From Phreatobacter sp. (GTDB lineage Bacteria > Pseudomonadota > Alphaproteobacteria > Rhizobiales > Phreatobacteraceae): DNA of 64,000 bases. The notes beneath the pieces were generated by a model. That model worked only from the letters and a program-made list of their open reading frames with translations, did no database searches and was not told the origin of the DNA. Positions 53,786 through 64,000 of this stretch are shown piece after piece. Where the stretch lies: the NCBI RefSeq assembly GCF_027532945.1, contig NZ_JAPZTZ010000006.1:1-64000 (forward strand). The letters run 5' to 3'. Made by a program: the position numbers and the translations under genes. The stretch's first letter is position 1. Every line of letters begins with the position of its first letter.

Positions 53786-53834
53786 TGGTTGCGGGGGCCA
53801 GATTTGAACTGACGACCTTCAGGTTATGAGCCTG
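53786..53834 (-). other. Attachment-site remnant: 3' part of an initiator tRNA-fMet (CAT) gene
   Basis: Read on the minus strand this gives CAGG-CTCATAA-CCTG (anticodon arm, CAT), AGGTC, a T-arm (GTCAG TTCAAAT CTGGC) and CCCCCGCAACCA, the acceptor end typical of initiator tRNA. The fifth anticodon-stem pair and the whole 5' half are missing: beyond 53834 the sequence changes to unrelated T-rich DNA. It is therefore a 49-bp 3' fragment left by site-specific integration, not a working tRNA. Confidence 0.82.
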
Positions 53835-54064: not shown

Positions 54065-55288
54065 ATGCCTCAGAACTTCACCGATCTGATGCTGCGCAAG
54101 CTCACATCCGAAGGCCAGGCCCGCGTTGAAATCTGGGATGCCCGTATCCCCGGCTTTGGTCTGCGGGTCTCAAGCGCAGGCACCAAGACCTTCGTGCTCG
54201 TATACCGCCATCGGGGACGCCCGCGCCGCCTGACCTTGGGGCGCTATCCGATCCTCTCGCTCGCAGACGCCCGCACCAAGGCCACGCAGGCGCTGCTCGC
54301 CGTCAACGAGGGTGTCGATCCGGGCTTGGTCGAACAGGCGGAGGACGATCTGGCCTATCAGTTCGACGCCGTCGTGACCGCATTCGTGAAGGCGCATTGC
54401 GCCGTACACAACAAGGCAAGCACCGCGAAGGAAACCGAGCGTTTGCTCCGCAAGCACTTCGTGAGCGCCTGGAAGAAGCGCGACGTGCGGGATATCCGCC
54501 CCCCGCACATCAACGACATCCTCGACGCCCTCGTGGAGGCCGGAAAGCCAAGCGAGGCCAATCACGCTCTCGGGGTCATCAAGACCCTGTTCGGTTGGTG
54601 CGTCGACCGCGACATGATCGCGGTCAGCCCCGCCACAAAAATCAAGAAGCCCGCTAAGCACGGCTCACGATCCCGCGCGCTCTCGGAAGGTGAGCTTCAG
54701 CGCCTCTGGCCTGTGCTGGAAGACGAGGGGTACCCCTTCGGCACTATGACCAAGCTGTTGCTCCTAACCGGGCAGCGGCGGGGCGAGGTGACGCAAATGA
54801 AATGGTCGCAGCTCGATCTTGCCGCCAAGACCTGGCTCATTCCGGCCGAACTCTCAAAGAATGGGCGCGAGCATCTGGTGCCGCTCTCGGACCACGCCAT
54901 GGCCATCATCACCTCCATCCCGAAGGACCAGAACGACCTTGTGTTCCCCGCGCGCGGCAACGGCGAGAACGTCGTCTCGGGCTTCACAAGGGCCAAGAAC
55001 CGGCTCGATCGCCTATCGGGCATCAAGGACTGGACGCTCCATGACCTGCGCCGCACGGCGGCGACCCATCTCGCCAAACTCGGCACACCGCCCCACATCA
55101 TCGAGCGTGTGCTGAACCACGTCTCGGGCAGCTTTGCGGGGGTGGCCGGGGTCTATAACCGCCATCCGTATTTCGAGGAAATGCGTTCGGCCTTGCAGGC
55201 CTGGGGCGAGCAAGTGGCCGCCATGCCGGCGCACGAAAGCAGTGCCTCGCAACGCGCATCCGAACGCCAGCCGCAACCCAATGCTTGA
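54065..55288 (+). CDS. Tyrosine-type site-specific recombinase (integrase)
   Basis: The 407-residue integrase has an N-terminal arm-binding DUF4102-like domain (WDARIPGFGLRVSSAGTKTF, LTLGRYPILSLADAR), a SAM-like core-binding domain (about 100-195) and the catalytic domain. Catalytic residues are R238 in TGQRRGEV, K265, H326 and R329 in LHDLRRT, H352 in NHVSGS and nucleophile Y364 in GVYNRH; all appear intact. It lies 230 bases from the tRNA-fMet fragment, consistent with integration there. Its stop codon overlaps the -35 box of the higBA promoter. Confidence 0.94.
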   Translation: MPQNFTDLMLRKLTSEGQARVEIWDARIPGFGLRVSSAGTKTFVLVYRHRGRPRRLTLGRYPILSLADARTKATQALLAVNEGVDPGLVEQAEDDLAYQFDAVVTAFVKAHCAVHNKASTAKETERLLRKHFVSAWKKRDVRDIRPPHINDILDALVEAGKPSEANHALGVIKTLFGWCVDRDMIAVSPATKIKKPAKHGSRSRALSEGELQRLWPVLEDEGYPFGTMTKLLLLTGQRRGEVTQMKWSQLDLAAKTWLIPAELSKNGREHLVPLSDHAMAIITSIPKDQNDLVFPARGNGENVVSGFTRAKNRLDRLSGIKDWTLHDLRRTAATHLAKLGTPPHIIERVLNHVSGSFAGVAGVYNRHPYFEEMRSALQAWGEQVAAMPAHESSASQRASERQPQPNA

Positions 55289-55313
55289 CAAATGTCAATT
55301 GACATTTTACATT
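55285..55313 (+). promoter_or_regulatory. Promoter of the higBA operon
   Basis: The -35 box TTGACA (55285-55290) matches the consensus and overlaps the integrase stop codon. A 17-base spacer leads to TACATT (55308-55313, four of six matches to TATAAT). The start codon of higB is at 55325, so the leader is very short. Confidence 0.65.
55291..55306. promoter_or_regulatory. Palindromic operator within the higBA promoter
   Basis: AATGTCAATTGACATT is a perfect 16-bp palindrome filling the spacer between the -35 and -10 boxes. Its placement fits autorepression by the HigA helix-turn-helix antitoxin, alone or with HigB. Confidence 0.65.
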
Positions 55314-55324
55314 GAGAGTTGAAT

Positions 55325-55603
55325 ATGATCGATAGCTTTGCGCATAAAGGCCTGAAACGGTTTTATGAAAGTCAGGACGAGCGCAAGCTTCCGCCAGACA
55401 TGGTTGAGCGGATCGCCATTCTTCTGGCAGCGCTCGACGAGGCGAAGGTCATCGAGGATTTGGATCGCCCGAGCTTCCGGCTACATAAGCTGAAGGGTGA
55501 TCTGGCAGGATACTGGTCGATCACAGTACGCGCGAATTGGCGCATCGTGTTCAGGTTCGAAGACGGCAATGCGTCGAACGTGGACTTTTTGGACTATCAC
55601 TAG
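55325..55603 (+). CDS. higB: HigB-type toxin (RelE/ParE superfamily)
   Basis: The 92-residue protein has the RelE/HigB fold pattern: FAHKGLKRFYE near the N-terminus, FRLHKLKGDLAGYWSITVRA, and NWRIVFRFEDGNASNVDFLDYH at the end. HigB toxins are ribosome-dependent mRNA endonucleases. ATG 55325 is preferred over TTG 55319 because it gives the family N-terminus (MIDSFAHKGL). The toxin precedes the antitoxin, as is usual for higBA, with 13 bases between them. Confidence 0.9.
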   Translation: MIDSFAHKGLKRFYESQDERKLPPDMVERIAILLAALDEAKVIEDLDRPSFRLHKLKGDLAGYWSITVRANWRIVFRFEDGNASNVDFLDYH

Positions 55604-55616
55604 GAAGGAGGACGCC

Positions 55617-55907
55617 ATGCCGATGAAAAACCCGCCGCACCCCGGCCTTGGCCTGCGCGACGATCTCGTCGAGCTAGGATGGTCCGTGGCCGAGGCTGCC
55701 GTAGCCCTGGGGATCACGCGCCAGCAACTCTACAACGTCATCAACGGCAAGAGCGCCATCACGCCCGATATGGCCATTCGCCTTGAGAAGGGGATTGGCA
55801 GCACTGCCGATGCCTGGCTCCGGATGCAGGCCGCGTTCGATCTGGCCCAGGCACGCCTCCGCACGGCGTCGCTGAACGTCAAGAAGCTCGCACCAAAAGT
55901 GGCCTGA
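55617..55907 (+). CDS. higA: HigA-type antitoxin (XRE helix-turn-helix)
   Basis: This 96-residue protein has the HigA N-terminus (HPGLGLRDDLVELGWSVAEA), the HTH with VALGITRQQLYNVINGKSAI and the family block RLEKGIGSTADAWLRMQAAFDL. AGGAAGGAGG directly upstream of ATG 55617 is a very strong ribosome binding site, which would keep antitoxin in excess over toxin. It probably binds the palindrome at 55291. It ends 38 bases before hsdR. Confidence 0.92.
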   Translation: MPMKNPPHPGLGLRDDLVELGWSVAEAAVALGITRQQLYNVINGKSAITPDMAIRLEKGIGSTADAWLRMQAAFDLAQARLRTASLNVKKLAPKVA

Positions 55908-55945
55908 GGGGCGAGGGGAAACGAAGTGGGGAAGACGATACCGCC

Positions 55946-58900
55946 ATGAAGGGGCACGGGGGCAACTTCCATTTTCTGGAGGTTTATGATGCGCAGCTCG
56001 TAAGGCTTGGCGCGCTTGCGGAGCGTTACTTCGCAGACGACCCGAATACCTGCCTCATCAAGTTGCGCCAGTTCGCCGAGTTGCTCGCCCAGCAGCTCGC
56101 AGCCCGCATGGGACTCTTCGGAACACCGGATGAACCGTTCGCAGACCTCTTACAACGATTGAAAGCCGAGCGCGCGATGCCGCGCGAAGCCGGTGACATT
56201 TTCCATCAGTTGCGCATCGCGGGAAACCAGGCCGCGCATGCCAACCGCGAGGATCATGCGGGAGCGCTGACCGCACTGAAACTTGCTCGCCAGCTCGCCA
56301 TCTGGTTCCACAAAACCATCGGCCACGAACCAGGGTTTAAGCCGGGACCATTCATCCCGCCGACGTCGCCACAAGATGCCTCGTCCGAGCTGAGCGCCGA
56401 GATCGCACGACTCAAATCCGCGCTCGAAGAGAGCCAATCAGCCGCCGACCGCGCTCGCGCCGATGCCGAGCGACATGCCCGCGAGAAGGAAACCGCTGAG
56501 GATCAAGCGCGTCGCGAAGCTGAAGAACGAGCCTTATGGGAGCAGCTTGCGAACGAAGCCGAGAGCCACAAGCTCGCATTAGCCCAGGAACTGGCAACGC
56601 TTCAGAAGGCCTCAGAAGAAGCACTGCCAAAATCGCTCGCGGTTCTCTACGAACAGGCCGAAACAGCGGCGCGCGCCATTGATCTCGATGAATTGGCGAC
56701 ACGCGCCTTGATCGATCAGCAACTGCGCCAACGCGGCTGGATCGTCGACAGCCGGGCAATGACCTATGCGAAGGGCGCTCGCCCCGTGAAGGGCCAGAAT
56801 ACGGCCATCGCCGAATGGCCAACGGCGACAGGCCCCGCCGATTACGCTCTATTCACCGGCACGACGCCTATAGGCGTGGTCGAGGCCAAGCGTCAGCGCA
56901 AAAATGTCTCAGCGGCCCTAACCCAATCCGAGCGCTATTCGAAGGGCATCAAACTTGGTGCGGAGGGGCAGTTCGCCGCCGCCCCATGGGGCGAGTTCAA
57001 GGTACCGTTCCTCTTCGCGACGAACGGCCGACCCTACCTCAAGCAAATCGAAACCGAGAGCGGCATCTGGTTCCGCGACGCCCGCAAATCGACAAATCAT
57101 GCTCGCGCTCTCGCCGACTGGTTCACTCCCGAGGGTCTGAAGGCCGAACTGGATATTGATCGTGCCAAGGCCGATGAAGCCCTGAAGAGCGAACCGTTCA
57201 ATTTCGGGTTCAGCCTGCGGCCCTACCAGAAAGACGCTATCCAGGCGATTGAGACAAAGCTGGCTGAAGGCAGGCGAGAGATGCTGGCCGCGATGGCCAC
57301 CGGCACCGGCAAGACCAAGCTCGCCATCGCGCTCCTCTACCGCGTTCTTGCCGCGAACCGATTCCGGCGTGTGTGCTTCATCGTCGACCGGAGTGCGCTC
57401 GGGAACCAGACCAAGGACGAATTCACGACAACGAAAGTGGTCGGCGTTCGCGCCTTCGCCGACATCTTCGGCTTGAAAGGCCTAGAGGACATCAACCCCG
57501 ACCTCGACACACGCGTCCACATCTGCACCATCCAGGGCCTGGTCAAGCGCGTGCTCTATGCGAGCGACCCCGCTGACGTACCGCCTATCGATCAGTATGA
57601 CCTGATGCTGGTCGACGAATGCCACCGCGGCTATCTGCTCGACCGCGAGCTGTCTGACGCCGAACTCGGCTTCCGCAACCAGGACGACTACGTCTCGAAA
57701 TATCGTCGCGTCCTGGAGCACTTCGATGCGGTGAAGGTGGGCCTCACCGCAACACCGGCCTTGCATACGGCTCAGATATTCGGCGACCCGATTTACACCT
57801 ACTCTTATCGTGAAGCCGTCATCGACGGTTATCTCATCGACCACGAGCCTCCGTTCCGGATACGGACGCAACTCTCGGACAAAGGCATCATCTTCAAAAA
57901 GGACGACAACCTCGACCTATTCGACGCTGCAACCGGAACCGTCCACTCGACGCGTGCGCCCGACGAAATCGCGTTCGAAGTGGAGGAGTTCAACAAGAAG
58001 GTCATCACGGTGCCCTTCAATGCGGTTGTCTGCGAGGAATTGGTCAATCACATCGACCCGGGCCTTCCTGGCAAGACGCTGATCTTCGCGGCGACCGATG
58101 CGCATGCCGACATCGTGGTCGAACAACTCAAGAAGGCTTACGTTGCAGCCGGCATTCCAATCGAAGACGGGGCTATTAAGAAGCTGACCGGCAGCGTCGA
58201 CAAGGTACAGACCCATATCCGGTCATTCCGCAACGACGCGAACCCGAAGATCGCCGTAACCGTCGACCTGCTCACGACCGGCATCGACGTGCCTTCGATC
58301 ACCAACTTGGTGTTCCTGCGTCGCGTAAACAGCCGCATCCTCTACGAGCAGATGCTAGGCCGCGCCACGCGCCTATGCCCCGACATCGGCAAGGAGACCT
58401 TTCGCATCTTCGACGCGGTCGACCTCTATGCGAACCTGCAAGCCGTGACCGCCATGAAGCCTGTGGTGGTCAATCCGCAAATCTCCCTGACACAGCTCAT
58501 GGAGGAACTCGCGAAAGCCGAGGACGATGCGCACCGCGAATTCATCCGTGACCAGTTAATCGTGAAGCTACGCCGCCGATTGAGAAAGCTCCCTGATACG
58601 GCACGTGCACAATTCGAAGCCGAAGCCGGCGAAGCGCCTGAAGCTACCCTCACGCGCATCCAGCAATCTGACCTTGGCGACCTCGTCGGATGGGTACGCT
58701 CCAAACCTCGCCTTGGTCCCATCCTCGATTGGAACCCGGACGGCCCTGGCGTCCTGATCCCGATCTCAGAGCACGATGATCAACTCAAAGGCGTGAGCCG
58801 TGGCTACGGCGATGCTGCGAAGCCTGAAGACTTCCTAGACAACTTCACGACCTTCGTGCGGACCAACCTCAACAAGATCGCAGCGCTCACCGTCGTGGTG

Positions 58901-59326
58901 CAGCGCCCGCGCGACCTTACACGCCAACAGCTCCGGGAACTGAAGCTCGAACTCGACCGGCAGCAATACAGCGAGACCAATCTCCGGCAGGCCTGGAAGC
59001 AGACCAAGAACGAGGACATCGCCGCAAGCATCATTGGCTTCGTAAGGCAGGCTGCTCTCAAGGAGCCGTTGATGCCCTACGAACAACGCGTCGAGCGCGC
59101 TCTCGCCACGATCCTGAAAAGCCGTGCCTGGACCGATCCGCAACGCCAGTGGTTGCAGCGCATCGGCGAGCAGCTGAAGAAGGAGCTTGTGGTCGACCGG
59201 CAGGCACTCGACGACACCCCATTCGCAGAACATGGCGGCTTCAACCGCCTCAACAAACAATTCAACGGTGAGCTGGAAACCATCCTCTCCCAACTCAGTG
59301 AGGAACTATGGCAAGCAGCGAGCTGA
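55946..59326 (+). CDS. hsdR: Type I restriction enzyme R subunit (HsdR)
   Basis: The 1126-residue motor-nuclease has an N-terminal DUF4145-like helical domain (about 15-115), a coiled-coil (150-235), and a PD-(D/E)xK nuclease with VVEAKRQ (E313, K315). A superfamily 2 translocase follows, with Walker A MATGTGKT (K456) and DECHRG (D557), then a C-terminal EcoEI-type helical region. It cuts unmodified DNA after ATP-driven translocation, in complex with HsdM and HsdS. It overlaps hsdM by 19 bases. Confidence 0.95.
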   Translation: MKGHGGNFHFLEVYDAQLVRLGALAERYFADDPNTCLIKLRQFAELLAQQLAARMGLFGTPDEPFADLLQRLKAERAMPREAGDIFHQLRIAGNQAAHANREDHAGALTALKLARQLAIWFHKTIGHEPGFKPGPFIPPTSPQDASSELSAEIARLKSALEESQSAADRARADAERHAREKETAEDQARREAEERALWEQLANEAESHKLALAQELATLQKASEEALPKSLAVLYEQAETAARAIDLDELATRALIDQQLRQRGWIVDSRAMTYAKGARPVKGQNTAIAEWPTATGPADYALFTGTTPIGVVEAKRQRKNVSAALTQSERYSKGIKLGAEGQFAAAPWGEFKVPFLFATNGRPYLKQIETESGIWFRDARKSTNHARALADWFTPEGLKAELDIDRAKADEALKSEPFNFGFSLRPYQKDAIQAIETKLAEGRREMLAAMATGTGKTKLAIALLYRVLAANRFRRVCFIVDRSALGNQTKDEFTTTKVVGVRAFADIFGLKGLEDINPDLDTRVHICTIQGLVKRVLYASDPADVPPIDQYDLMLVDECHRGYLLDRELSDAELGFRNQDDYVSKYRRVLEHFDAVKVGLTATPALHTAQIFGDPIYTYSYREAVIDGYLIDHEPPFRIRTQLSDKGIIFKKDDNLDLFDAATGTVHSTRAPDEIAFEVEEFNKKVITVPFNAVVCEELVNHIDPGLPGKTLIFAATDAHADIVVEQLKKAYVAAGIPIEDGAIKKLTGSVDKVQTHIRSFRNDANPKIAVTVDLLTTGIDVPSITNLVFLRRVNSRILYEQMLGRATRLCPDIGKETFRIFDAVDLYANLQAVTAMKPVVVNPQISLTQLMEELAKAEDDAHREFIRDQLIVKLRRRLRKLPDTARAQFEAEAGEAPEATLTRIQQSDLGDLVGWVRSKPRLGPILDWNPDGPGVLIPISEHDDQLKGVSRGYGDAAKPEDFLDNFTTFVRTNLNKIAALTVVVQRPRDLTRQQLRELKLELDRQQYSETNLRQAWKQTKNEDIAASIIGFVRQAALKEPLMPYEQRVERALATILKSRAWTDPQRQWLQRIGEQLKKELVVDRQALDDTPFAEHGGFNRLNKQFNGELETILSQLSEELWQAAS

Positions 59327-60810
59327 CAAGAACGAACGTAACGACAGGCGATATCGTCGCTAAACTCTGGAGCCTCTGCCACGTCCTTCGCGACGATGGC
59401 ATCACGTACAACGAGTACGTGACCGAGCTGACATATCTGCTCTTCCTCAAGATGTTAGCGGAAACCGGACACGAGGAACGGCTGCCTAAGGGCTACCGTT
59501 GGGCCGAGCTTACCCGCCGCACGGGCATGGATCAGCTCACATATTACCGCCAGCTCATGCTCGACCTCGGCAATCCCGCGCACGTGAAGGACCCAACCGT
59601 CCTTGCCATTTTCGCCGACGCTCAAACCAAGCTTCGTAAGCCCACGAACCTCAAATCCCTCACGACCGACATCGAACAACTCGACTGGTTCTCGGCACGC
59701 GAGGAGGGGCTTGGCAATCTCTACGAAGGCCTCTTGGAGAAAAACGCCGCTGAAAAGAAATCAGGTGCCGGGCAGTACTTCACGCCGCGCCCCCTGATCG
59801 ACAGCATCGTCCGGCTTATGAAGCCGCAGGCGGGCGAGGTCATTCAGGACCCCGCTGCCGGTACCGGTGGCTTCATCGTAGCCGCCGACCGCTACATCAA
59901 AGACGCGACCGACGACCTTTTCAAGCTGCCAAAAGACAAGGCCGCATTCCAACGCCGCAATGCCTATACGGGCTCTGAGCTGGTGCCGGACACACACCGC
60001 CTCCTTCTCATGAACCTGATGCTCCACGGCATCGAATGTCCTTTTGAAAGCGGCGACTCGCTCTCGCCCACCGGGGAAGGGTTGGGCAAGGCCGACCTCA
60101 TCCTGACCAACCCACCCTTTGGCACCAAGAAGGGCGGCGGGCGGCCGACGCGGGCTGATTTCTCGATCACCGCCGAGACGTCGAACAAACAGCTCGCCTT
60201 TGTCGAGCATATCGTGCGCGCCTTGAAGCCCGGAGGACGCGCGGCCGTCGTGCTGCCCGACAACGTGCTGTTCGAAGACAACACAGGCCGCCGACTGCGC
60301 ACATGGGTCATGAACCTCTGTGATCTGCACACCATCCTGCGGCTTCCAACAGGCATTTTCTACGCCCAGGGCGTGAAGACCAACGTGCTGTTCTTGACGC
60401 GCAGCAAGACTGACACCGGCAACACAAAAGCCGTCTGGGTCTACGACTTGCGCGCCAACATGCCAGCATTCGGCAAAACCCGACCGTTGAAGCTGGAAGA
60501 TTTCGCAGCGTTCGAGAAGGCGTTTGGGGATGATCCGCACGGCAAATCCAAGCGCACGGACGAGGGTGAGGAGGGGCGTTTTCGGTGCTTCAAGAGACAA
60601 CAGATCGAAGAACGCAACGACAATCTCGACATCGCGTGGCTTCGCGACACGGAGGCTGAGGCCGAGGAAGGCCTCACCGAACCCGAGGACATCGCCGCAG
60701 CCATCATCGGGCATCTGAAAGCTGCGCTCGGCGAGATAGAGGAGCTGAGCGACGAATTAGAGGGCGGGGAAGAAGCTCTGACCGCGCTCACCAAGGAGGC
60801 CGCAGAATGA
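59308..60810 (+). CDS. hsdM: Type I restriction-modification methyltransferase subunit (HsdM)
   Basis: The 500-residue N6-adenine methyltransferase has an N-terminal HsdM_N domain (LWSLCHVLRDDGITYNEYVT), SAM motif I DPAAGTGGF (D181) and catalytic motif IV NPPF (N268-F271). A helical C-terminus follows. ATG 59308 lies inside hsdR with GAGGA upstream. It shares ATGA with hsdS. The order R-M-S in one operon is typical of part of the type I families. Confidence 0.96.
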   Translation: MASSELTRTNVTTGDIVAKLWSLCHVLRDDGITYNEYVTELTYLLFLKMLAETGHEERLPKGYRWAELTRRTGMDQLTYYRQLMLDLGNPAHVKDPTVLAIFADAQTKLRKPTNLKSLTTDIEQLDWFSAREEGLGNLYEGLLEKNAAEKKSGAGQYFTPRPLIDSIVRLMKPQAGEVIQDPAAGTGGFIVAADRYIKDATDDLFKLPKDKAAFQRRNAYTGSELVPDTHRLLLMNLMLHGIECPFESGDSLSPTGEGLGKADLILTNPPFGTKKGGGRPTRADFSITAETSNKQLAFVEHIVRALKPGGRAAVVLPDNVLFEDNTGRRLRTWVMNLCDLHTILRLPTGIFYAQGVKTNVLFLTRSKTDTGNTKAVWVYDLRANMPAFGKTRPLKLEDFAAFEKAFGDDPHGKSKRTDEGEEGRFRCFKRQQIEERNDNLDIAWLRDTEAEAEEGLTEPEDIAAAIIGHLKAALGEIEELSDELEGGEEALTALTKEAAE

Positions 60811-62150
60811 CCGAGCTTCCGACCGCGTGGGTCCAAACTACACTTGGCCAACTAGGTGGTTGGTCAAGCGGCGGAACGCCATCGAGAAAGAACCCAAGCT
60901 ATTTTGGCGGCAACATTCCATGGGTAAAAACAGGTGATCTAAATGATACGGTACTCACCGCAACGCCTGAATTCATAACGGAAGCAGGCCTGCACAATAG
61001 CGCCGCAAAGCTCTTCCCGCCCGGCACTCTTCTTGTCGCAATGTACGGTGCCACAATTGGCAAGACGGCAGTCCTCGGAATTCCTGCCGCTACCAATCAA
61101 GCGTGTGCTGCTTTGCTGCCCGGAGAGATAACTAGTGATCTAATTCCCTACGTCTGGAAGTTCCTCATCGGCAATATCAACGAACTGAAGCAAGCGGGAC
61201 AAGGTGGAGCGCAGCTGAATATCAGCCAAGAAATACTGAAAGCTTTGCCGATTCCGCTAGCTCCACTTCCGGAGCAGCGCCGCATCGTCGCAAAACTCGA
61301 CAGCCTCCGCTCCCGCTCGTCCCGCGCCCGCCAGGAACTCGACCACATCCCCAAGCTGATCGAGCGCTACAAGCAGGCCATCCTCGCCAAAGCGTTTTCT
61401 GGACAGCTAATCGGCCTCATTCCCGAAGACACGGCGCACCCACATGAAGCCTGCTGGAATCTACCGAAATCCTGGCGATGGGTTCGCTTCGACGAAGCAG
61501 CTGAAATTGCTTCGAACCTCGTTCCAACATCTGAAGTGCAACAACTGCCGCACATCGCTCCAGACAACATCGGTGCGGGGACCGGCAAACTGCTTGCTTT
61601 CTTCACAGTAGCTGAAGATGGCGTTAAGAGCCCTAAACATCGGTTCTACCCAGGCCAAGTCCTATACTCAAAAATTCGTCCGTACTTGCGCAAAGCCGTC
61701 TTAATCGACTTTGAGGGCGTTTGTAGCGCGGACATGTATCCGCTCAACGCGAAACCGAATGTCGTTCCTCGCTATCTATATTACTGGGCATTTAGTCAGC
61801 AGCTTGCTAGCTTTGTTGTTGACCATGAAGGGCGAACGGTCCTCCCAAAGGTAAACCAGGTTGGCCTGAACCAGACTCCATTTCCGCTCGCTCCCGAGCC
61901 GGATCAGCAAGCGATCGTGAAGTTGTTAGACCGTGCCTTCGCGTGGCTCGACAGAATCACCGCCGAGCACGCTTACACTGAGCATCTACTGCCTAAGCTC
62001 GACCAAGCCATCCTCGCCAAGGCCTTTCGAGGCGAACTCGTTCCCCAAGACCCGAACGACGAGCCAGCATCGGATCTACTGAAGCGGATCAAAGCCGAGC
62101 GAAACACTCAAGCTGGAGCACGTCGCCGTGGCCGTAATCCGCAAAATTGA
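60807..62150 (+). CDS. hsdS: Type I restriction-modification specificity subunit (HsdS)
   Basis: The 447-residue protein contains two target-recognition domains (about residues 1-150 and 205-370), each followed by a conserved helical spacer. The first spacer has PLPEQRRIVAKLDSLRSRSS and IERYKQAILAKAFSGQL, the second PDQQAIVKLLDRAF and LDQAILAKAFRGEL. The two TRDs read the two halves of a bipartite target. Both domains look complete. The target cannot be deduced from sequence alone. Its last 23 bases overlap the next gene. Confidence 0.95.
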   Translation: MTELPTAWVQTTLGQLGGWSSGGTPSRKNPSYFGGNIPWVKTGDLNDTVLTATPEFITEAGLHNSAAKLFPPGTLLVAMYGATIGKTAVLGIPAATNQACAALLPGEITSDLIPYVWKFLIGNINELKQAGQGGAQLNISQEILKALPIPLAPLPEQRRIVAKLDSLRSRSSRARQELDHIPKLIERYKQAILAKAFSGQLIGLIPEDTAHPHEACWNLPKSWRWVRFDEAAEIASNLVPTSEVQQLPHIAPDNIGAGTGKLLAFFTVAEDGVKSPKHRFYPGQVLYSKIRPYLRKAVLIDFEGVCSADMYPLNAKPNVVPRYLYYWAFSQQLASFVVDHEGRTVLPKVNQVGLNQTPFPLAPEPDQQAIVKLLDRAFAWLDRITAEHAYTEHLLPKLDQAILAKAFRGELVPQDPNDEPASDLLKRIKAERNTQAGARRRGRNPQN

Positions 62151-63837
62151 AATCCGTCATTTTCGAGGAATCGCTTCTCTTGACTGGTGCCCAAGTGTAG
62201 GAATCAATTGTCTCATCGGACCAGGCGATAGCTGCAAAACGACGATCCTCGATGCGATCGACTTATGCTTAAGCGCTCGACGCAATCTGACTTTGAATGA
62301 CTCTGACTTTCACAATCTCAACGTCGCCACGCCCATCACTATCTCGATCACGGTCGGAGCGCTCGGAGACAATCTTAAGAACCTCGAATCCTACGGCCTC
62401 TACCTGAGGGGCTTCGACCCAAAAACTGGTGATTTGCATGACGAGCCCGATACTGGCCTTGAGACGGTCCTAACCTTGCGGCTCACAGTCGCGGCCGATC
62501 TGGAGCCTTCTTGGACCCTTGTATCCGATCGCGCCGAGCAGCAAGGTCAGTCACGGGGGCTCGGCTGGACCGATCGTGCAAGCATGAGCCCGACACGCCT
62601 TGGTGCGTACGCTGACCAAAATCTGAGCTGGGGCCGCGCGTCTATCTTAAACAAAATCTCCGACGAAACCATTGCCGCGTCGACAGCTCTCGCTGACCTC
62701 GCTCGAAACGCTCGCAATGCCTTCGGGCAACAGGCCGAAGCTGGCTTGCCAAAAGCGTTAGCCACAGTACAGACGACCGCGATTGAATTGGGCGTGCCCG
62801 TCGGCGGTGCCGTCAAAGCCATGCTTGACGCTCAGTCCGTATCATTCTCCGGGGGGACGATCTCACTGCATGGTGAAGATGGCGTCCCGCTCAAAAGCCT
62901 CGGCCTTGGGTCGAAACGCTTGCTCATTGCTGGCCTTCAGCGTGCCGCCGCCGCAACCACCCCCATTGTCTTAGTCGACGAGATCGAACACGGGCTTGAG
63001 CCACATCGTGTGATCCGTCTCATTGACGCTCTCGGTGCGAAGGAGGCCAAGCCTCCATTGCAGACGTTCCTTACTTCACACTCTCCAGTCGCTGTACGCG
63101 AGCTATCTGCCAACCAGCTCTACGTCGTACGCTCGAATGGTACCAGCCATCTCGTTCACCGGGCCTCCGATAGCGGGGATGTCCAAGGCACGATCCGATT
63201 ATCCCCAGACGCTCTGCTAGCCCGCTCAGTTCTTGTCTGCGAAGGAGCAACTGAAATCGGCCTCATAAGAGGCATAGACCAGTTTCGCGCTACAACTGGC
63301 GCAGCCTCGCTCACAGCGTGCGGCGCAGCTATTGTTGACGGAGGTGGCGAGAACGTCTTCAAACGCGCCCGCGCCTTCCAACTGCTCGGCTACCGGACTG
63401 CTGTGCTCCACGACAGCGATAAGATTCCGACCCCCGACGTGAAAGCCGCCTTCGAAGCGGATGGCAGCCCAACATTTGCATGGCAGGAAAACTGCTCGAC
63501 TGAGGAAGAGTTGTTCTTGTCGCTTTCGGATAGCGCGGCCTTGGCGTTGCTTGAGAACGCTGTTCTGCGCCGCAGCGATAAGACCATCGACGACCAAATC
63601 AGGTCAGCGTGCGCCGCAAAACACTCTCTCGCATCATTCCGCGCCAACCTGACAACTGAAGCGAGAGCAATACTTGGCTTAGCATCGAAGGCTAAGCACT
63701 CAGGCTGGTACAAATCTATCAGCGACATGGAAGTTGTTGCTCGCGATATCGTAGCTCCGGACATGCAGAATTGCGCGGCACCGCTCAAGACAACGATTGC
63801 CGGAGTGTTCAAGTGGATCACCGATGGCAGCCGATGA
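62128..63837 (+). CDS. OLD-family ATPase with TOPRIM nuclease domain (GajA-like)
   Basis: The 569-residue protein begins with an ABC-type AAA domain: IEIRHFRGI, Walker A LIGPGDSCKTTILDAIDL (K37) and a C-terminal ATPase half with VLVDEIEHGLEP and TSHSPVAVREL. A TOPRIM domain follows with CEGATEIGLIRGID (E372), an IVDGGGEN block and HDSDK (D429, D431). This is the architecture of OLD nucleases and of GajA in Gabija phage defence. It starts at GTG 62128 inside hsdS and overlaps the helicase gene by 14 bases, so it is coupled to both. Confidence 0.85.
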   Translation: MAVIRKIEIRHFRGIASLDWCPSVGINCLIGPGDSCKTTILDAIDLCLSARRNLTLNDSDFHNLNVATPITISITVGALGDNLKNLESYGLYLRGFDPKTGDLHDEPDTGLETVLTLRLTVAADLEPSWTLVSDRAEQQGQSRGLGWTDRASMSPTRLGAYADQNLSWGRASILNKISDETIAASTALADLARNARNAFGQQAEAGLPKALATVQTTAIELGVPVGGAVKAMLDAQSVSFSGGTISLHGEDGVPLKSLGLGSKRLLIAGLQRAAAATTPIVLVDEIEHGLEPHRVIRLIDALGAKEAKPPLQTFLTSHSPVAVRELSANQLYVVRSNGTSHLVHRASDSGDVQGTIRLSPDALLARSVLVCEGATEIGLIRGIDQFRATTGAASLTACGAAIVDGGGENVFKRARAFQLLGYRTAVLHDSDKIPTPDVKAAFEADGSPTFAWQENCSTEEELFLSLSDSAALALLENAVLRRSDKTIDDQIRSACAAKHSLASFRANLTTEARAILGLASKAKHSGWYKSISDMEVVARDIVAPDMQNCAAPLKTTIAGVFKWITDGSR

Positions 63838-64000
63838 CATCGATCTGCTTAACATCCAAAGAGGCCTCGTTATCGCGCCTGCTGGCTGCGGCAAGACTCA
63901 ACTGATAGTCAACGCCTTGACGCGACATAGAGGTTCTAAACCGGTTCTTGTGCTGACGCACACGAATGCTGGCGTCGCCGCCCTGCGCATCCGTCTAGAA
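63824..64000 (+). CDS. UvrD-like superfamily 1 helicase, N-terminal part (GajB-like), runs off the window
   Basis: Fifty-nine codons are present from ATG 63824 to the window end. They show the Q-motif region and Walker A LVIAPAGCGKTQLIVNAL (residues 15-32), then motif Ia VLVLTHTNAGVAALRIRLE, both typical of UvrD/PcrA/Rep helicases. Placed directly behind an OLD ATPase-nuclease, it fits the second gene of a class 2 OLD/Gabija pair. The remaining motifs lie outside the window. Confidence 0.8.
   Translation, partial: MAADDIDLLNIQRGLVIAPAGCGKTQLIVNALTRHRGSKPVLVLTHTNAGVAALRIRLE

Follow-up and report, generated by a model that had tools for sequence, protein, structure and literature searches.

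Type I restriction–modification (R-M) operons are already known to carry second systems within them. PrrC, a tRNA nuclease that guards the R-M enzyme, is a known guard inside the type I locus ecoprrI (PMC12707154), the toxin–antitoxin system DarTG2 of enteropathogenic E. coli is reported to lie between hsdS and hsdR, under shared control and with the repressor RptR (PMC12255303), and the GmrSD-type system TgvAB in a type I operon of V. cholerae is reported to be complementary to restriction and to protect even with a nuclease-dead HsdR (PMC11411939). Pseudomonas islands supply further examples (PMC12629846). Here we analyse a locus of this kind in Phreatobacter sp. (assembly GCF_027532945.1, contig NZ_JAPZTZ010000006.1), of which positions 1–64,000, hereafter the window, were examined together with the 1835 bases by which the contig runs on; at its right-hand end an hsdR-hsdM-hsdS operon is joined through overlapping reading frames to gajA and gajB, the two genes of a Gabija system. 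Like TgvAB, this Gabija pair gives a type I operon a second nuclease system, but it follows the last hsd gene whereas TgvAB lies between hsd genes; like DarTG2, it adds a complete further system to a single type I operon, but a nuclease-helicase and not a toxin–antitoxin; and like PrrC, it is an accessory effector within a type I locus. Gabija behind hsdS was not found described in the literature searched, although a preprint on embedded defence by Payne and colleagues may list such cases. Comparison with relatives of both halves suggests that hsdS and gajA came together here by a local exchange, at a site where a second defence is often inserted, and do not form a fixed new system.

The five genes lie on the same strand and follow one another in this order:

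55946..59326, + strand: hsdR, 1126 amino acids, with DUF4145, HSDR_N, helicase and EcoEI_R_C domains (PADLOC REase_I, 1.1e-247)
59308..60810, + strand: hsdM, 500 amino acids (Pfam N6_Mtase, 7.3e-69; PADLOC MTase_I, 6e-207)
60807..62150, + strand: hsdS, 447 amino acids, with two specificity stretches (Pfam Methylase_S) and a C-terminal tail like that of its relatives
62128..63837, + strand: gajA, 569 amino acids, with a GTG start inside hsdS; OLD-family ATPase and TOPRIM nuclease
63824..65245 (L002:3825-5246), + strand: gajB, 473 amino acids, with an ATG start; UvrD-like helicase, in which the window stops at 64000

Direct reading of the sequence confirms the gene order and the four overlaps given in a preliminary description of this DNA: 19 bases between hsdR and hsdM, 4 between hsdM and hsdS, 23 between hsdS and gajA, and 14 between gajA and gajB. 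Extending the sequence to the right, as that description had proposed, completes the helicase, gajB being intact beyond the window edge on the same contig and ending at 65245. The GTG start of gajA is preceded, 9 bases upstream and within hsdS, by GGAG, and it fits the alignments with 80 GajA relatives (the best 80 of 178 by genome scan, 47–57% identical), which mostly begin at residue 1; the start codons of these relatives are ATG in 56, GTG in 16, TTG in four and other in four. Neither a promoter nor a terminator was found on the + strand between hsdS and gajA, both scans being at or below chance. Among relatives of the R-M half, the 19-base and 4-base overlaps recur in L148 and L197, and translational coupling of hsdM and hsdS at a 1-base overlap is reported for EcoKI (PMC3510504).

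The last two genes are, as judged from family matches of their sequences, full-length GajA and GajB, so that the preliminary description had named the modules rightly as a type I R-M system plus Gabija (class 2 OLD with UvrD). PADLOC matches GajA over residues 1–565 of 569 (PDLC04168, 8.1e-229), with Pfam AAA_21 and OLD-like_TOPRIM domains, and GajB over residues 5–470 of 473 (PDLC04173, 5.5e-183), with Pfam UvrD-helicase at 1.1e-15. Adjacent to each other are thus an ATPase whose TOPRIM domain has a complete acidic site (E372, E376, D429 and D431, invariant across 81 GajA sequences) and a helicase with Walker A and DExQD boxes (APAGCGKT, the P-loop, and VDEYQD, invariant across 29 GajB sequences). 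Catalytic residues E379, D432, D434 and G409 are reported for BcGajA (PMC10781630), and these were mapped onto the window GajA by motif only. With the solved Gabija our pair has in common the two-gene order, the TOPRIM acidic residues and the helicase motifs; it differs in being far in sequence (the phmmer signal against solved structures is weak, with no GajA chain at E ≤0.1 and GajB chains at 0.025–0.026), in being joined to hsdS, and in carrying a cysteine in the P-loop. This cysteine is residue 36 of GajA (62233–62235), the Walker A glycine preceding the lysine, a position occupied by G in 78, S in two and C in one of the 81 sequences. We considered it as a sign of decay and draw no conclusion, cysteine and threonine occurring there in two more distant relatives. 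Among 50,697 phage records, gajA had no match at 1e-20.

The R-M half has complete HsdR, HsdM and HsdS within one operon. Its HsdM shares about 77% identity with the HsdM proteins encoded on Zymomonas plasmids, among them that of Z. mobilis ZM4, and DNA restriction has been reported for the HsdRMSp type I system of the ZM4 plasmid (PMC8432527). The same hsdR-hsdM-hsdS order is found on a plasmid of Zymomonas ATCC 10988, where hsdS is followed by two fragments, one winged-helix and one restriction endonuclease (Mrr_cat, Pfam), in contrast to the Gabija of the window. Truncation of hsdS by the insertion was considered and set aside, since its tail resembles most of the tails of nine relatives. 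We also considered a joint import of hsdS with gajAB, given that third-position GC is 0.57, 0.61 and 0.58 in hsdS, gajA and gajB and 0.73 and 0.75 in hsdR and hsdM; the shared low value is uninformative, because hsdS lies below hsdM in all 13 relatives checked.

Conservation separates the two junctions. In all 80 GajA relatives gajB directly follows gajA, and 80/80 of them have an in-frame ATG or GTG between −17 and −4 relative to the gajA stop, against 201 of 1600 control windows, a count made independently of a start choice favouring positions near −10. Because of this adjacency and overlapping start, gajA-gajB counts as a fixed pair: the gajA-gajB overlap is a family trait, and the hsdS-gajA overlap is local. 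The 23-base form of the latter was found in the window only, with a 1-base overlap at the equivalent junction of L023. Upstream of gajA, HsdS was found in one of 79 loci (L023) and HsdR in one (L047); one further locus, L058, without an upstream open reading frame (ORF), is excluded, and the ORFs, called with a simple longest-ORF script, include some that are not genuine genes. The remaining upstream ORFs are varied (DUF3800 in nine, P-type ATPase in six, HTH_31 in five, AbiEii in two, JetD, Mrr and others), Methylase_S occurring once and being absent among upstream families with at least two members (25 of 66 families listed). An HsdM-like match at 1e-20 is present in the flanks of nine of the 80 loci, in two of these within the gajA gene train, and L076 has a further one at 1e-5 only.

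Other sets of genomes give a similar picture. No hsd label stands upstream of gajA in 15 further loci from class and phylum genomes or in six from closer relatives, labels that mostly come from tblastn alone, and no hsd gene is annotated in the 4 kb flanks of eight plasmid loci (of 298 records); these sets overlap each other and the 80 (L202 is like L026, and L203 like L071) and were not summed. Since tblastn did not pick up the HsdS of L023, which came to light through Pfam (1.8e-5) and PADLOC (4.4e-100), a remote HsdS may escape such tblastn-based labels. Across 198 related genomes (199 including its own), GajA matched at 1e-60 in seven and hsdM DNA at E 1e-80 or better in six, with no genome in both groups; the halves were searched apart, and remote copies below these thresholds would escape. 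Within the same order, five loci have the R-M system without gajA (L146, L148, whose contig stops 1.2 kb past hsdS, L149, L197 and L198) and four have Gabija without an hsd label (L165, L201, L202 and L203). The preliminary description had proposed a single defence unit with fixed coupling of the R-M genes to OLD and UvrD, to be abandoned if OLD/UvrD pairs were rarely next to hsdS or if related islands had either module alone at this place; with HsdS upstream in 1/79, 0/198 genomes matching both halves at the thresholds used, and each module found alone within the order, the fixed unit does not hold.

Gabija has nevertheless met type I genes elsewhere. In L023, an Accumulibacter metagenome-assembled genome (7142–18020), the order is hsdM-hsdS-gajA-gajB-RhuM/Fic-hsdR, so that gajAB lies between hsd genes, which it does not in the window. 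The hsdS-gajA overlap there is the single base of TGATG, the HsdM is only 24% identical to that of the window, and the HsdR C-terminus is of HindI type against EcoEI type in the window. In L047, hsdM-hsdS-hsdR is followed after 77 bases by gajA-gajB. In a FastTree phylogeny of GajA, read without regard to branch supports, the window groups with L013, L016 and L021, L023 with L011 and L015, and L047 with L052; none of these six neighbours has an hsd match in its flanks, some of their contigs being short. Gabija is thus joined to type I genes in three loci of the set, apparently through separate entries, which is the simplest reading. L022, with gajAB 2.2 kb upstream of an hsdRMS operon and an HsdM 56% identical, was weighed as a further join and taken as a neighbour only. 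Its tree neighbours L027 and L032 are without such a downstream operon, L027 having another HsdM more than 6 kb off on the opposite side of gajAB, and the contig of L024 stops about 2.8 kb after gajB. Two observations concern single Gabija loci. At L015:7908-9542 an ORF with a PlsY-like N-terminus and a helicase C-terminal domain overlaps gajA by one base, possibly a recombination scar or an assembly artefact; and on a Bradyrhizobium plasmid (L178:4001-8173) an IS630 element splits gajA from gajB according to the annotation.

Seen from the restriction operon, the position behind hsdS is variable. We defined this slot as the next same-strand ORF of at least 90 amino acids within 100 bases after hsdS, and surveyed 29 relatives with hsdM before hsdS: 8 of 64 plasmid records, 3 of 11 class genomes (picked for this order), 14 of 14 phylum genomes and four closer relatives. 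Class loci L107-L113 (six of other order, one without an HsdS match) and L099 (a short contig) were dropped, and the hsdS of L117 is split in the annotation. Gabija fills the slot in none of the 29, while a recognised nuclease or ATPase defence module does so in 13: a Septu-like/restrict_AAA_1 ATPase in six (L105, L106, L119, L154, L155 and L159), Mrr in four (L114, L115, L151 and L197), McrBC in two (L156 and L157) and GmrSD in one (L150). L154, in which the frame is broken, was called Septu-like because it has AAA domains and resembles L105, and the Mrr of L115 is annotated in two pieces, a winged-helix piece 3 bases and an Mrr_cat piece 403 bases after hsdS. Five of the 13 modules share 4 or 1 bases with the end of hsdS (L106, L119, L150, L155 and L159). 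In L197, of the same order and with an HsdM 78% identical, Mrr starts 3 bases after hsdS, where the window has Gabija. The McrBC cases are pairs of an AAA_5 gene and a McrBC-family gene, beginning 49 bases past hsdS in L156 and 39 in L157; outside the slot count, Mrr lies further downstream in L152 and L153. A similar-looking, unscanned gene pair stands 502 bases after hsdS in L158.

The operon itself sits in an integrase-bearing region whose remaining features are:

53786..53834, − strand: tRNA-Met-like 3' fragment with CAT anticodon, identified by eye; the island probably has its left attachment site here
54065..55288, + strand: tyrosine integrase of the island (Pfam Phage_integrase, 2.6e-25; Arm-DNA-bind_3)
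55319..55603, + strand: HigB-like toxin (Pfam HigB-like_toxin, 1.1e-23)
55617..55907, + strand: HigA-like antitoxin (Pfam HTH_3, 1.2e-10)

The HigBA pair (55319–55907) adjoins hsdR on its upstream side. We take the operon island to be acquired because GC falls from about 0.70 over the first 53 kb to 0.55–0.60 in the operon. ARAGORN found no whole tRNA in the window, and when 37 bases of the tRNA fragment were sought in the assembly with up to 3 mismatches allowed, only the original copy turned up. The contig breaks off at 65835, within the first part of a further ORF (65762–65835; L002:5763-5836), which we take to be the start of an IS3-type transposase, and because of this likeness the contig end is probably an assembly break at a repeat.

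We favour, at a probability of roughly 0.62, the reading in which the window encodes independent defence layers in one operon, with Gabija occupying a modular tail slot behind hsdS. An integrase-borne defence island marked by the tRNA-Met fragment, integrase and HigBA carries the co-directional hsdR-hsdM-hsdS-gajA-gajB train, whose type I system is predicted to methylate the host and cut unmethylated incoming DNA. Gabija would have been swapped into the hsdS tail slot, which in relatives holds Mrr, GmrSD, McrBC, a Septu-like system or nothing, and would there probably share a transcript with the hsd genes, with gajA probably translated by re-initiation at the hsdS overlap. From this place its nuclease could act on phages that have evaded restriction, as a second line of defence that is biochemically independent. 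Two properties attributed to Gabija, its triggering by Ocr (PMC10286901) and its block on circularisation of linear DNA that RecBCD does not handle (PMC12407980), would each make it useful against restriction-beating phages. Independent lines are favoured over a joint machine because TgvAB, the nearest tested precedent in the literature consulted, protects with a nuclease-dead HsdR. The second-line role that the preliminary description assigned to the OLD nuclease and helicase is plausible, because the slot is filled by a second nuclease or ATPase system in 13/29 relatives, and this part of its joint defence unit stands where the fixed coupling does not. The trigger by HsdS/HsdM products that it also raised found no support in the present comparisons.

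Several observations weigh against this reading. The slot is empty in 11 of the 29 relatives (among them L120, which has an annotated 88-amino-acid ORF 50 bases after hsdS), and five slots hold ORFs that are unrecognised or unscanned (L116, L147, L152, and the unscanned 90-amino-acid ORF of L148 and 101-amino-acid ORF of L200). Two of the 13 recognised modules, those of L115 and L154, are broken. The survey used a simple ORF caller on 29 partly non-independent loci, and the enrichment of the slot is a lead rather than a measured fact because it has no background rate from other operons. Moreover, the single sigma-70-like promoter match in 55200–64000, before higB, compares with 2.3 expected by chance.

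Of the alternatives, chance clustering survives best, although we regard it as unlikely. Here Gabija would lie behind hsdS as it might behind any gene of a defence island, and the overlap would be functionally meaningless. The rarity of HsdS (1/79) among varied upstream ORFs, the few HsdM-like flanks (nine of 80 at 1e-20, two in the gajA train, and L076 at 1e-5) and the lack of annotated hsd genes in the 4 kb flanks of the eight plasmid loci all accord with it. On the other hand, recognisable defence modules occupy the slot in 13 of 29 relatives, in five cases with a 4- or 1-base overlap, and a close junction with the hsdS end arose twice with unlike hsd genes, in the window and in L023.

A guard or hand-over unit, in which GajAB answers the failure or the products of restriction, appears improbable. 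Two routes can be pictured: anti-restriction proteins that block HsdM/HsdS might trigger GajAB, or linear ends made by HsdR and left untaken by RecBCD/AddAB might be its substrate. In favour of the first, a review names PARIS, Gabija and Zorya II as systems triggered by Ocr, an anti-restriction protein (PMC10286901; likewise PMC12255303); in favour of the second, a preprint makes the case that linear DNA on which RecBCD has not acted is attacked by Gabija and kept from circularising (PMC12407980); and PrrC offers a precedent for a guard in a type I locus (PMC12707154). However, Gabija of the window type shows no conserved pairing with type I R-M, the model as set out in passages of PMC12407980 does not involve R-M and lays its emphasis on the phage ends that are injected, and the P. 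aeruginosa pair is described there as a gajA-gajB operon in an island, those passages mentioning no hsd link. That the hsdS 3' place is a general recruitment slot where translational coupling holds a second nuclease in step, restriction and Gabija acting in series, we likewise consider doubtful.

If action in series were true, phage DNA cut by HsdR or protected by anti-restriction would be the preferred target of Gabija, one operon thereby closing the escape route left by the other. More generally, the counts show that overlapping genes, however striking, are not always the mark of a conserved machine: the gajA-gajB overlap is family-wide and the hsdS-gajA overlap local. The window, L023 and L047, each combining Gabija with an unlike type I system, are natural constructs in which cooperation between the two could be tested, and the 3' end of type I operons deserves a search for exchangeable second-line nucleases.

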